64,000 bases of DNA, from positions 124,001-188,000 of the forward strand of contig NZ_JACYHB010000004.1 in the NCBI RefSeq assembly GCF_014837295.1. The letters run 5' to 3'. The first letter of the stretch is position 1, and the number at the start of each line of letters is the position of its first letter. The position numbers and the translations under genes were made by a program. Shown here one piece after another: positions 37,575 to 41,094 of the stretch. This DNA is from Cellulosimicrobium arenosum. Lineage in GTDB: Bacteria; Actinomycetota; Actinomycetes; Actinomycetales; Cellulomonadaceae. The notes beneath the pieces are model-generated. The model made no database searches. It was not told the DNA's origin and saw only the letters and a list, made by a program, of their open reading frames with translations.

Positions 37575-38831
37575 TTAGAACCCCAGGGCCTGGGTCACGT
37601 CGGTGATGATGTCCTCGGGGGCTTCCAGGCCGATCGACAGGCGGATCGTGGTCTCCGCGATGCCGACCGCCGCGCGGCCCTCGGGGCCCAGCTTGCGGTG
37701 GGTCGTCGTGGCGGGGTGCGTGACCATCGACTTCGCGTCGCCCAGGTTGTTGGAGATGTCCACGAGCTGCAGCGCGTCGAGGAACGTGAAGGCCCGCTTC
37801 TTGGCGGTCTCCGCGTCGGTCCCGGGTGCCACGTCGAGGTCGAACGTCACGACCGTCCCGCCGCCCGTCTGCTGCGAGCGCGCGAGCTCGACCTGCGGGT
37901 GGGACTCGAGGAACGGGTAGCGGACGCGTGCGACGCCCGGCAGCTTCTCGAGCTCGCGTGCGATCCGCTCCGCCCCGGCGTTCTGCGCGGCGACACGCAC
38001 CGGCATCGTCTCGAGGCCCTTGAGCAGGACCCACGCGTTGAACGCCGAGAGGGTCGGGCCCGTGTTGCGGATGAACGTCTGCACGGGCCCGCCGATGTAC
38101 TCCTCGGTCCCGAGGATCGCCCCGCCCAGCACGCGGCCCTGCCCGTCGATGTGCTTGGTCGCCGAGTACACGACGACGTCCGCGCCGAGCTCGAGCGGCT
38201 TCTGCATGAGCGGCGTAGCGAACACGTTGTCGAGCACGACGACGGCGCCCGCCGCGTGCGCGAGCTCGGCCACACGTCGTGCGTCGACGATGTCCTGCAT
38301 CGGGTTGGACGGCGTCTCGAAGAACACGACGTCCGCGGGCGTGGACAGCGCCTCCTCCCACTGCGACAGCACGTGGCCGTCGACGTAGTCGGTGCGCACG
38401 CCCCACTTGGCGAAGATCTCGTCGAAGATCACGACGCTCGACCCGAACAGCGCGCGCGCCGTGACGATCCGCGACCCGGACTGCACGAGCGCCGCGAGCG
38501 ACGTGAACACGGCCGACATGCCCGACGCCGTCGCGTAGCACGCCTCGGCGCCCTCGATCAGGCGCAGGCGCTCCTCGAACGTGTGCACGGTCGGGTTGCC
38601 GTAGCGGGAGTAGACGAACCGGTCGAGCTCGCCCTTGAAGGCGGCCTCGGCGTCGGCCGCCCGGTCGTACGTGTATCCCTGCGTGAGGAAGAGCGCCTCG
38701 GACGTCTCCTGGAACTCGGTCCGCGCGTTGCCGCCGCGCACGGCGAGCGTCGCCGGGCGGGCGCTCGCGGGCAGCGGCTTGCGGCCGGAGCCACCGGGGA
38801 CGGGTCGCCCGACGCCGTCGCCCGCGCTCAC
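37575..38831 (-). CDS. metZ: O-succinylhomoserine sulfhydrylase
   Basis: A 418-residue PLP enzyme of the Cys/Met gamma-family, making homocysteine directly from O-succinylhomoserine and sulfide. YSRYGNPTVHTFEERL, ATASGMSAVF, FFETPSNPMQDIVD and VYSATKHIDGQGRVLGGAI with the PLP Lys at 226 are visible; the last motif distinguishes MetZ from MetB. The GTG overlaps the rhodanese stop by 4 bp, so translation is coupled, and both lie behind a SAM-I riboswitch. It ends with TAA. Confidence 0.92.
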   Translation of the reverse strand: MSAGDGVGRPVPGGSGRKPLPASARPATLAVRGGNARTEFQETSEALFLTQGYTYDRAADAEAAFKGELDRFVYSRYGNPTVHTFEERLRLIEGAEACYATASGMSAVFTSLAALVQSGSRIVTARALFGSSVVIFDEIFAKWGVRTDYVDGHVLSQWEEALSTPADVVFFETPSNPMQDIVDARRVAELAHAAGAVVVLDNVFATPLMQKPLELGADVVVYSATKHIDGQGRVLGGAILGTEEYIGGPVQTFIRNTGPTLSAFNAWVLLKGLETMPVRVAAQNAGAERIARELEKLPGVARVRYPFLESHPQVELARSQQTGGGTVVTFDLDVAPGTDAETAKKRAFTFLDALQLVDISNNLGDAKSMVTHPATTTHRKLGPEGRAAVGIAETTIRLSIGLEAPEDIITDVTQALGF

Positions 38832-39298
38832 CGGTCCGTCTCCGCCTGGTCGGGGGAGTAGGTCGTGGTCGGCAGGCCGCGGACCTTCCAGCCCTCGACG
38901 TCGCGCGCGCCGGTGAAGCCGGGAGCGCCCTCGAAGCCCTCGAGCACGTTGTAGGCGGGGCCCAGCCCGGCACCGGTGGCAGCACGGGCCGCGCCGATCG
39001 AGCGCTGCCCGGACCGGCACAGGAACACGACCGGTCGCTCGTCCCCCGGCGCGAGCCCCGCCTGCGCGAGCTCGTCCAGGAACGCCGGGTTGGGGCCCTG
39101 CGGCGTCACCCACTCGTCGAACACGACGTCGCGGCCCAGCCCTGCGACGTCGGGCACCCCGATGGTGCGCCACTCGCCCACCGTGCGGACGTCCACGAGG
39201 ACGGCGCGCTCGTCGGCGGCGAGCAGGTCCCATGCCTGCTGAGGCGTGAGGTCACCGGCGTAGCCGGCGGCAGGGCGGGGGGTCAGGTCATCGCTCAT
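38828..39298 (-). CDS. Rhodanese-like sulfurtransferase
   Basis: A 156-residue single rhodanese domain. DLTPQQAWDLLAADERAVLVDVRTVGEW, FLDELAQAG and the active loop VVFLCRSGQRSIGAARAA with Cys94 are intact, so persulfide transfer is likely. The C-terminal EGFEGAPGFTGARDVEGWKVRGLP is of the kind found beside MetZ. It is the first gene of the SAM-I-controlled unit and is coupled to metZ. The ATG is preceded by GGAGGAG, which overlaps the riboswitch P1 stem. Confidence 0.9.
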   Translation of the reverse strand: MSDDLTPRPAAGYAGDLTPQQAWDLLAADERAVLVDVRTVGEWRTIGVPDVAGLGRDVVFDEWVTPQGPNPAFLDELAQAGLAPGDERPVVFLCRSGQRSIGAARAATGAGLGPAYNVLEGFEGAPGFTGARDVEGWKVRGLPTTTYSPDQAETDR

Positions 39299-39299
39299 G

Positions 39300-39414
39300 G
39301 GATCTCCTCCATCGGTCGTGGCAGTAGCACCCTGCGCCCTGCCTCGCCGCGACGGCGGGGCCGGGGGGTTGCTGCGGCGTCGACGTGCCACGTCACTCGG
39401 CCGCTCCGGATGGT
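39300..39414 (-). ncRNA. SAM-I (S-box) riboswitch before rhodanese-metZ
   Basis: Reading the minus strand: P1 is CCATC (39413-39409) with GATGG (39313-39309). P2 is GCGGC (39404-39400) with GCCGC (39378-39374), with a GA-rich kink-turn-like part between (CCGAGTGACG). Then comes the conserved GCAGCAACC joint, a GC-rich P3, and the GGGTGCTACTGCC segment of SAM-I. The 3' P1 strand overlaps the Shine-Dalgarno GGAGGAG (39310-39304), so SAM binding would hide the ribosome site. The class is assigned from remembered consensus, by eye. Confidence 0.85.
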
Positions 39415-39488
39415 TGAGGGGATCGTACGTCACCGCGCCCGGTGCCGGGCCTCCGCCGGCTCAGGATGCGAGACGACGTGCCCATCGG

Positions 39489-39518
39489 TTGACACGCTCC
39501 GCGGGCCTCGCCCATCCT
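39489..39518 (+). promoter_or_regulatory. Promoter for the SAM-IV-controlled gene
   Basis: TTGACA (39489-39494) is a perfect -35 hexamer. After 18 bp CATCCT (39513-39518) is the best -10. Transcription would begin near 39525, at the 5' strand of riboswitch P1, leaving almost no sequence before the aptamer. Confidence 0.5.
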
Positions 39519-39521
39519 GGA

Positions 39522-39645
39522 CGCAGGTCATGAGTGCCAGCGCAAAACCCCGGTTTGCTGGCCGGCAACCCTCCTCTCGCGGCGGGGTGCCCCGGGTGAC
39601 GACCTGGCCCCGCGTCGACCGGCGTGCGGGCAAGCGCGGGGAGGA
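39522..39645 (+). ncRNA. SAM-IV riboswitch before the cysteine-desulfurase-like gene
   Basis: P1 is AGGTC (39525-39529) with GACCT (39601-39605). P2 is GCCAGC (39536-39541) with GCTGGC (39557-39562), capped by AAACC/GGTTT and without a kink-turn. CCGGCAACC, the GGGGTGCCCCGGGTGA segment and the 3' stem CCCCGCG (39608-39614) with CGCGGGG (39635-39641) ending GGCAAGCGCGGGG match the actinobacterial SAM-IV consensus. Beyond it, CCTCC (39646-39650) can pair with either GGGGA upstream or the ribosome site GGAGG (39664-39668). Confidence 0.85.
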
Positions 39646-39672
39646 CCTCCCCGACGACCCATCGGAGGACCC

Positions 39673-41094
39673 ATGACCGCTCTCGCCGAACGCGACTGTC
39701 AGCCCGCCGCGCGAACCGTCGCCGACGTCCCCGCCCTGCTTCCCGTCGTCGGGAGCGACACGCTCGTCCCGCTCGTCGACGGCAGCAGCGTGACCTACGC
39801 CAACCTCGACGTCGCGGCGTCCGCGCCGGCGCTGCGGTCCGTCGCGGACCGCGTCACCGAGGTCCTTCCGCTGTACGCGAGCGTGCACCGCGGCGCCGGG
39901 TACCTCTCCCAGGTCTCGACCGCGCTGTACGAGGCGTCGCGCGCCACGATCGGCGTGTTCGTCGGTGCCCGGCCCGACGACGTGACGATCGTCACGCGCA
40001 ACACCACCGACTCGCTGAACCTCCTCGCGGGCTGCGTGCCCGCCCGCGCGGACGGCACGCCCGGCCGGGTGCTCGTCCTCGACGTCGAGCACCACGCGAA
40101 CCTGCTGCCGTGGCAGCGCACCGGCGGGGCGACGGTCCTCGCGGGCGGCGGGTCGGTCGCCGAGACCCTCTCGGGCCTGCGCGCCGAGCTCGCCCGCTTC
40201 GACTACGCGCTCCTCGCGCTGACGGGCGCCTCGAACGTCACGGGCGAGTCGCTGCCCGTCGCGGAGGTCGTGCGGATCGCGCACGACGCCGGTGCGCGCG
40301 TCCTGCTCGACGGCGCCCAGCTCGTCCCGCACCGCGGGTTCTCCCTCGCCGGCACCGGGGCGGACTACGTCGCGTTCTCGGGTCACAAGACGTACGCGCC
40401 GTTCGGCTCGGGCGCGCTCGTGGGCCGGCGGGACTGGCTCGACACCGGCACGCCGTACCTCGCCGGCGGCGGTGCGGTGAGCCAGGTCCGCGTCGACGGG
40501 ACCGACTGGCAGCCGGCGCCCGCGCGCCACGAGGCGGGCTCGCCCAACGTCGTCGGCACGGTCGCGCTCGCGGCGGCGTGCGACGCGCTGGCCGCGCTCG
40601 ACCCCGCCGCGCTGGGCGCGCACGAGGCCGCGCTGCGGGACGCGCTCGTCGACGGGCTGTCGGGGATCGACGGGGTGGAGGTCGTGACCGTGTGGAGCGA
40701 CGCCGTCGACCCCGTCGGCGTCGTCACGTTCTCGGTGGCCGGGCACGACCCCGGCCTCGTGGCCGCCTACCTGTCGGCCGAGCACGGCATCGGCGTGCGG
40801 GACGGCCGGTTCTGCGCGCACCCGCTGCTCGCGCGCCTCGGGTACGACGCCGGAGCAATCCGCGCGTCCGTCGGTGTCGGGACGACCGGGGCCGAGGTCG
40901 TGCGTCTCGTCGGCGCGGTGCGGAGCTACGTCGAGAGCGGTCCGGGAGTGCGGTACGAGGTGGTCGACGGCTGCTGGGCCGTCGTCGACGACCCGCGTCC
41001 GGTGCCTGCCGGGTCCGGGCTGGAGGGCCTGTTCGCGACCGCCGCGGCGGGCTTCCTGGCCGACGCCGCGAGCTGCGGACCGGCGCCAGCCTGA
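39673..41094 (+). CDS. Class-V aminotransferase-fold PLP enzyme, cysteine-desulfurase-like
   Basis: A 473-residue PLP enzyme. DVEHHANLLPW has the PLP-stacking His (about 141), LLDGAQLVPH the PLP Asp (213), and FSGHKTYAPFG the PLP Lys (239). GVRDGRFCAHPLL places Cys381 where SufS/CsdB enzymes have the persulfide-forming Cys in RxGHHCAxP. A C-terminal extension of about 60 residues is unusual. It is SAM-IV-controlled and divergent from rhodanese-metZ, so a role in sulfur supply is likely. It may instead be another lyase of the same fold. GGAGGACCC precedes the ATG. Confidence 0.85.
   Translation: MTALAERDCQPAARTVADVPALLPVVGSDTLVPLVDGSSVTYANLDVAASAPALRSVADRVTEVLPLYASVHRGAGYLSQVSTALYEASRATIGVFVGARPDDVTIVTRNTTDSLNLLAGCVPARADGTPGRVLVLDVEHHANLLPWQRTGGATVLAGGGSVAETLSGLRAELARFDYALLALTGASNVTGESLPVAEVVRIAHDAGARVLLDGAQLVPHRGFSLAGTGADYVAFSGHKTYAPFGSGALVGRRDWLDTGTPYLAGGGAVSQVRVDGTDWQPAPARHEAGSPNVVGTVALAAACDALAALDPAALGAHEAALRDALVDGLSGIDGVEVVTVWSDAVDPVGVVTFSVAGHDPGLVAAYLSAEHGIGVRDGRFCAHPLLARLGYDAGAIRASVGVGTTGAEVVRLVGAVRSYVESGPGVRYEVVDGCWAVVDDPRPVPAGSGLEGLFATAAAGFLADAASCGPAPA

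Follow-up and report, generated by a model that had tools for sequence, protein, structure and literature searches.

The locus described here raises the question of why two different classes of SAM riboswitch should lie back to back in one intergenic gap, and whether such mixing reflects a regulatory design or the history of the genes concerned. It was found in the window, a stretch of 64,000 nucleotides of Cellulosimicrobium arenosum DNA, in which the start codons of two divergent genes are separated by a gap of 374 bp (39299-39672), exactly as long as the original prediction had stated. The gap was scanned with every Rfam family, and both of the expected families matched, on the strands and before the target genes that had been claimed: with the models run on both strands, SAM-I (RF00162) was found on the minus strand (E 4.3e-7 in a search of 431 bases) and SAM-IV (RF00634) on the plus strand (E 4.3e-18 over the window). 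By sequence and structure, these two back-to-back aptamers are real. We consider it probable that they belong to two translational riboswitches of the SAM-OFF type, which differ in class, act independently, lead divergent sulfur genes and have been inherited together with them.

Two aptamers between divergent sulfur genes

The minus strand carries a gene for a rhodanese-domain protein of 156 aa (38828..39298; PF00581, E 3e-7), followed by metZ (37575..38831), encoding an O-succinylhomoserine sulfhydrylase (PRK07810, 725.9 bits with a cut-off of 618). The GTG start of metZ, chosen from the sequence, overlaps the rhodanese stop codon (GTGA), and the two genes, in this order, make up the minus-strand operon. 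The plus-strand gene (39673..41094) encodes a class-V PLP enzyme of the SufS/CsdA-like type (PF00266, E 1.4e-76), which is read as retaining the motifs of both the catalytic cysteine and the PLP lysine. Its description as cysteine-desulfurase-like is fair, but the protein scores far under the cut-off of the SufS model (269 vs 475 bits). The possibility that it is the SufS of this genome was rejected, as a protein over that cut-off (562.8 bits) is encoded elsewhere. At a guess, the enzyme might have a sulfur-relay role alongside the rhodanese and MetZ.

The SAM-I (S-box) aptamer precedes rhodanese-metZ (39306..39416, minus strand) and matches RF00162 with 37.7 bits (E 9.5e-7 when the whole genome is searched). 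This is under the Rfam gathering score of 44.4 bits, which is why a default Rfam scan of the gap shows SAM-IV alone. The low score is probably due to the missing P4 helix, which takes up 20 nt in the model and is replaced by 4 nt in the window. The genome holds two SAM-I matches in all, the second of which (52.2 bits, over the cut-off) lies before a gene that was read from its sequence as metF-like. The SAM-I-IV variant (RF01725) was considered for the minus-strand element and rejected, as no match to this family was obtained anywhere in the genome with an E limit of 1.

For structural comparison, 36 SAM-I sequences were aligned, namely the window, 34 of the 67 distinct leaders (of at most 100 nt) found at related loci, and the metF-like leader. 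Most core positions are invariant, and, as judged by eye, none of the 36 rows has a P4, which also holds for the metF-like leader. In these sequences 99.7% of the cells of the SAM-I structure are paired, vs 28-66% for structures slid along the alignment. Four pairs are changed on both sides, all of them in P2; for one P2b pair this is the case in 17 of the sequences. In a set of 500 shuffles, none matched the alignment in the share of cells paired, in either count of double changes or in the covariation score; for the number of further pair types, 17 of the 500 were as high, and a shift of the structure by +3 gives a higher count (6 vs 4). RNAalifold, applied unaided, recovered P1 and P2 and missed P3. 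P1, P2 with its K-turn region, P3 and the pseudoknot of the P2 loop, all of which are features of the SAM-I family, are thus present, with covariation; as P1, P3 and the pseudoknot are nearly invariant, they add no covariation support of their own. What sets these leaders apart from the family is the lack of P4, common to all 36 aligned sequences, and scores that lie around the cut-off (24.6-61.7 bits at the same locus in 49 genomes searched with Rfam, of which 28 reach the cut-off and 21 miss it). The sequence at L001:1506-1600 and the SAM-I leaders of loci L084-L092 are also P4-less, this being the sole form among the leaders of the order that were examined.

A score under the gathering score and the absence of P4 could also mean that the minus-strand element is a decayed or chance look-alike of SAM-I. 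This is highly improbable, given that the core is conserved throughout the alignment, that P2 shows compensatory changes, that the same P4-less form exceeds the cut-off before the metF-like gene of the same genome, and that more than half of the relatives (the 28 of 49 mentioned above) reach the cut-off at this very locus, with up to 61.7 bits.

The SAM-IV aptamer (39526..39642, plus strand) is the only match to its family in the genome. It is full-length (model positions 1-116) and scores 104.2 bits, vs a cut-off of 38, and no difference from the known aptamer was seen. As in other members of RF00634, complementary pseudoknot strands are found: UCUCGCG in the P3 loop (39575..39581, plus strand) is complementary over 7 nt to the 3' strand CGCGGGG (39635..39641, plus strand), and the two are predicted to form the SAM-IV pseudoknot. 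Complementarity of 5-10 nt between this loop and the tail was found in all 53 distinct pairs compared, a count made without a shuffle control, and in 9 of the 53, the window included, the best pairing found by script is in another register.

Predicted expression platforms and promoters

On the minus strand, P1 is formed by CCAUC (39409..39413) and GAUGG (39309..39313), and the last two G of the latter are shared with GGAGG (39306..39310), the Shine-Dalgarno core of the rhodanese gene, placed 7 nt before the ATG at 39298. The same overlap was found in 74 of 80 loci (the sample is defined below), the core being displaced or altered in the other 6. According to the part of the source consulted (PMC2258182), a ribosome-binding site on the 3' side of P1 is a layout described for SAM-I riboswitches generally. 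Because of this overlap, a P1 stabilized by SAM would hide the ribosome-binding site of the rhodanese gene: SAM would close P1 of the P4-less aptamer, the 3' strand of P1 would hold the beginning of the Shine-Dalgarno sequence, and the rhodanese-metZ mRNA would be blocked from translation. A -10-like hexamer TACGAT (39422..39427, minus strand) lies 8 nt before P1, and a TAnnnT-like hexamer directly precedes P1 in 73 of 80 loci; it follows from this position that the SAM-I RNA may begin with P1 itself.

The presumed promoter of the SAM-IV leader consists of a -35-like TTGACA (39489..39494, plus strand) and a weak -10, CATCCT (39513..39518, plus strand), and TTGAC occurs upstream of SAM-IV in 78 of 80 loci. 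A strict promoter scan of the locus found no site for either leader. Downstream of the aptamer, two mutually exclusive hairpins can be drawn on the plus strand. The first, H1 (39635..39656; -14.7 kcal/mol, z -2.6), is an anti-pseudoknot hairpin, whose 5' arm includes the 3' strand of the pseudoknot; the second, H2 (39648..39669; -7.6 kcal/mol, z -0.9), pairs the Shine-Dalgarno sequence GGAGG of the plus-strand gene (39664..39668). They have a C-rich strand in common, which can pair either with the pseudoknot strand (H1) or with the Shine-Dalgarno sequence (H2), in the window and in many relatives. In the switch that these pairings suggest, H1 would form without SAM, leaving the Shine-Dalgarno sequence open, while SAM would stabilize the pseudoknot and thereby take the CGCGGGG strand from H1; the freed C-rich strand would then pair with the Shine-Dalgarno sequence, and the class-V PLP enzyme gene would be turned off. 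In the parts of the SAM riboswitch literature that were searched, no counterpart of this H1/H2 platform, which was derived here, was found.

The model was evaluated thermodynamically on 68 distinct tails, identical tails and those of L081 and L027 (wrong start call) being left out. When the tails were folded freely, 67 of the 68 had two or more of the four pseudoknot bases that were checked in a paired state. H1 and H2 are modestly more stable than in shuffles (mean z -0.95 and -0.69, respectively), and with the 5' arm of H1 removed the Shine-Dalgarno sequence is paired to 0.81, vs 0.76 in shuffles. A first switch test, in which six pseudoknot bases were blocked and 18 coding bases included, was null (mean difference 0.024 vs 0.002 in shuffles, and negative in 16 of the 68 tails). 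A second test, designed after this result and hence post hoc, blocked the full pseudoknot strand. The mean unpaired fraction of the Shine-Dalgarno sequence then fell from 0.41 to 0.17 (from 0.39 to 0.26 in shuffled tails), i.e. a mean drop of 0.244 vs 0.136, with p 6.5e-5 in a paired test, a value that is optimistic because the tail sequences are related. The drop exceeded 0.1 in 42 of the 68 tails and was 0.1 or less in 26, a rise of more than 0.1 was seen in none, and in the window the fraction fell from 0.62 to 0.10.

By this modelling, a translational switch built of pseudoknot, H1 and H2 is likely. Action of the SAM-IV leader on transcription, Rho-dependent or terminator-like, rather than on the ribosome-binding site would fit the null outcome of the first test and the 26 tails with little or no drop in the second. 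It is nevertheless quite unlikely in our estimation, since no intrinsic (T-run) terminator was found in 39250-39720 and since the C-rich strand has the two alternative partners described above in the window and many relatives alike. Both leaders are thus most likely SAM-OFF translational switches.

A further element of the SAM-IV side is a GAGAC box (39470..39474, plus strand), located 14 nt before TTGAC. Within 35 nt upstream of TTGAC it is present in 59 of 78 loci, with 2.5 expected from mononucleotide shuffles. Of these 59 loci, 46 have a spacing of 14-15 nt and 8 a spacing of 5 nt, two classes that are roughly a helical turn apart. For the SAM-I side, the region from 30 to 90 nt upstream of P1 was found to contain GAGAC in 39 of 80 loci, where 4.6 would be expected; in 37 of these it stands 42-44 nt from P1. 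In the window, an exact box is present on the SAM-IV side only. All these counts are inflated by the relatedness of the loci, and the box was counted in the very sequences that had drawn attention to it. The fixed spacing suggests a putative transcription factor site. In the genome, the combination of GAGAC and TTGAC gave 11 matches, vs 1 for a backward control, and no regulon emerged from this search. Just one other match has the 14-nt spacing, and it lies among frames that we take to be RimM-like and ribosomal protein S16-like.

Occurrence in relatives and comparison with known systems

Related loci were sampled through the plus-strand protein (best 80 of 189), so that the sample is conditioned on this gene; they come mostly from Cellulosimicrobium, Oerskovia, Sanguibacter, Promicromonospora, Isoptericola and Cellulomonas and are not independent of one another. 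The rhodanese gene is located divergently upstream of the plus-strand gene in 79 of the 80, while in L016 the contig starts inside the gene. Leaving L016 out, pattern counts were made on 80 loci (79 related ones and that of the genome itself), and a SAM-I core on the minus strand and a SAM-IV core before the plus-strand gene were found in all of them, with patterns that had been written after viewing the sequences and, for SAM-IV, loosened between rounds. Independently of the patterns, Rfam searches were performed on 49 genomes (from 50 of the 80 loci, L065 being left out), and both RF00162 and RF00634 matched at the locus in every one. The paired arrangement proposed for survey is, then, conserved in relatives, and a chance neighbourhood of one genome was rejected on the same counts. 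The distance between the two cores is 86-191 nt in 58 of the 80 loci and 321-3372 nt in the other 22, where adjacency is lost; a requirement for adjacency was accordingly rejected.

Among 129 genomes of the host's order (E up to 1e-4), SAM-IV was found in 78, SAM-I in 62 and both in 52. Divergent SAM-I/SAM-IV neighbours at most 160 nt apart were recognized by eye, among the matches listed, in at least 8 genomes besides that of the window, three of them of its own family and five of family f14, and two of the genomes (G081 and G155) have two such pairs each. As a separate observation, the SAM-I leader at L052:3322-3816 is separated from the rhodanese gene by a small DUF1737 gene (Pfam, one locus), and on visual inspection some twelve further Cellulomonas-like loci appear similar.

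Each part of this system has been described before, the two classes of riboswitch as well as the direct P1 layout; for the divergent arrangement, no description was found. No report of a divergent SAM-I/SAM-IV pair was found in the open-licence literature, outside of which most subscription papers lie, nor is one described in the consulted parts of PMC6890682, PMC3766115, PMC2864571, PMC9481103 and PMC2258182. In its main text, PMC9481103 does not use the words divergent, opposite or bidirectional. The closest likeness is offered by tandem SAM riboswitches of two classes, SAM-II/SAM-V and SAM-II/SAM-I-IV, described in the sections of PMC9481103 that were available; these too combine two SAM classes at one locus, but on a single transcript, whereas here the aptamers are on opposite strands and lead different genes. 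The P4-less form of SAM-I can fall under the default Rfam cut-off, as it does in the 21 of 49 genomes noted above, and half of many such pairs may therefore be missed.

Thresholds or inheritance

According to the part of PMC6890682 consulted, SAM-I and SAM-IV are believed to present a common binding pocket on scaffolds that differ. The original prediction had proposed that different affinities could let one SAM pool set two thresholds, and an alternative to inheritance can be built on this: the affinity for SAM or the kinetics would not be the same in the two classes, and the pair would be kept together in order to shut the genes at different levels. Retention of both classes at all 80 loci examined would agree with this, as would the further divergent SAM-I/SAM-IV pairs that family f14 has at different genes. 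We regard it as unlikely. Both classes persist at the 22 of 80 loci where the genes have been separated, and same-class divergent pairs also exist, SAM-IV/SAM-IV in G041 and G042 and SAM-I/SAM-I in G120. The case for a need of two thresholds is also weakened by three f14 genomes (G097, G127 and G155), in which the homologue of the plus-strand gene (61% identical) keeps its SAM-IV leader and faces a different SAM-I-led gene, metF (identified as MTHFR with Pfam at L084, one of these three loci, and judged alike in the other two).

Since the class stays with the gene despite separation or a change of partner, and since pairs of one class exist, inheritance is the simpler account. The facing orientation of the switches would follow from that of the divergent genes, each leader having been inherited with its own gene, and the mixing of classes may be a matter of inheritance rather than of design. 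Given the recurrence of facing SAM-I/SAM-IV pairs at other gene pairs of family f14, there may also be a functional reason for them. A more elaborate reading, in which control has three layers, would place a single transcription factor on the GAGAC boxes of the SAM-IV promoter, and in roughly every second relative on those of the SAM-I promoter as well, above SAM-I and SAM-IV with different platforms and distinct thresholds, the facing pair having been rebuilt at several gene pairs. Taken as a whole, it appears improbable, slightly more so than two thresholds on their own, and it is made less probable by the window, where the SAM-I side has no exact box.

The gap constitutes a natural paired experiment, in which one ligand meets two aptamers with different predicted platforms in the same cell. 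Leaders paired in this way make it possible to ask whether the class of a riboswitch sets its threshold, its speed or just its mechanism, with much else held constant.

Several other divergent pairs were seen in the course of this comparison. At L085:3049-3396, SAM-IV precedes a gene whose product is an ABC-transporter ATPase and matches the NIL domain slightly below the cut-off, and SAM-I precedes a luciferase-like monooxygenase gene. At L087:3066-3333, SAM-IV and SAM-I are divergent and 65 nt apart, SAM-IV being near a gene with a riboflavin-kinase domain (Pfam) and SAM-I preceding a frame judged to encode an FAD-linked oxidase. At L088:2983-3278, a SAM-I/SAM-I divergent pair lies before genes for an ABC ATPase and a flavin reductase.
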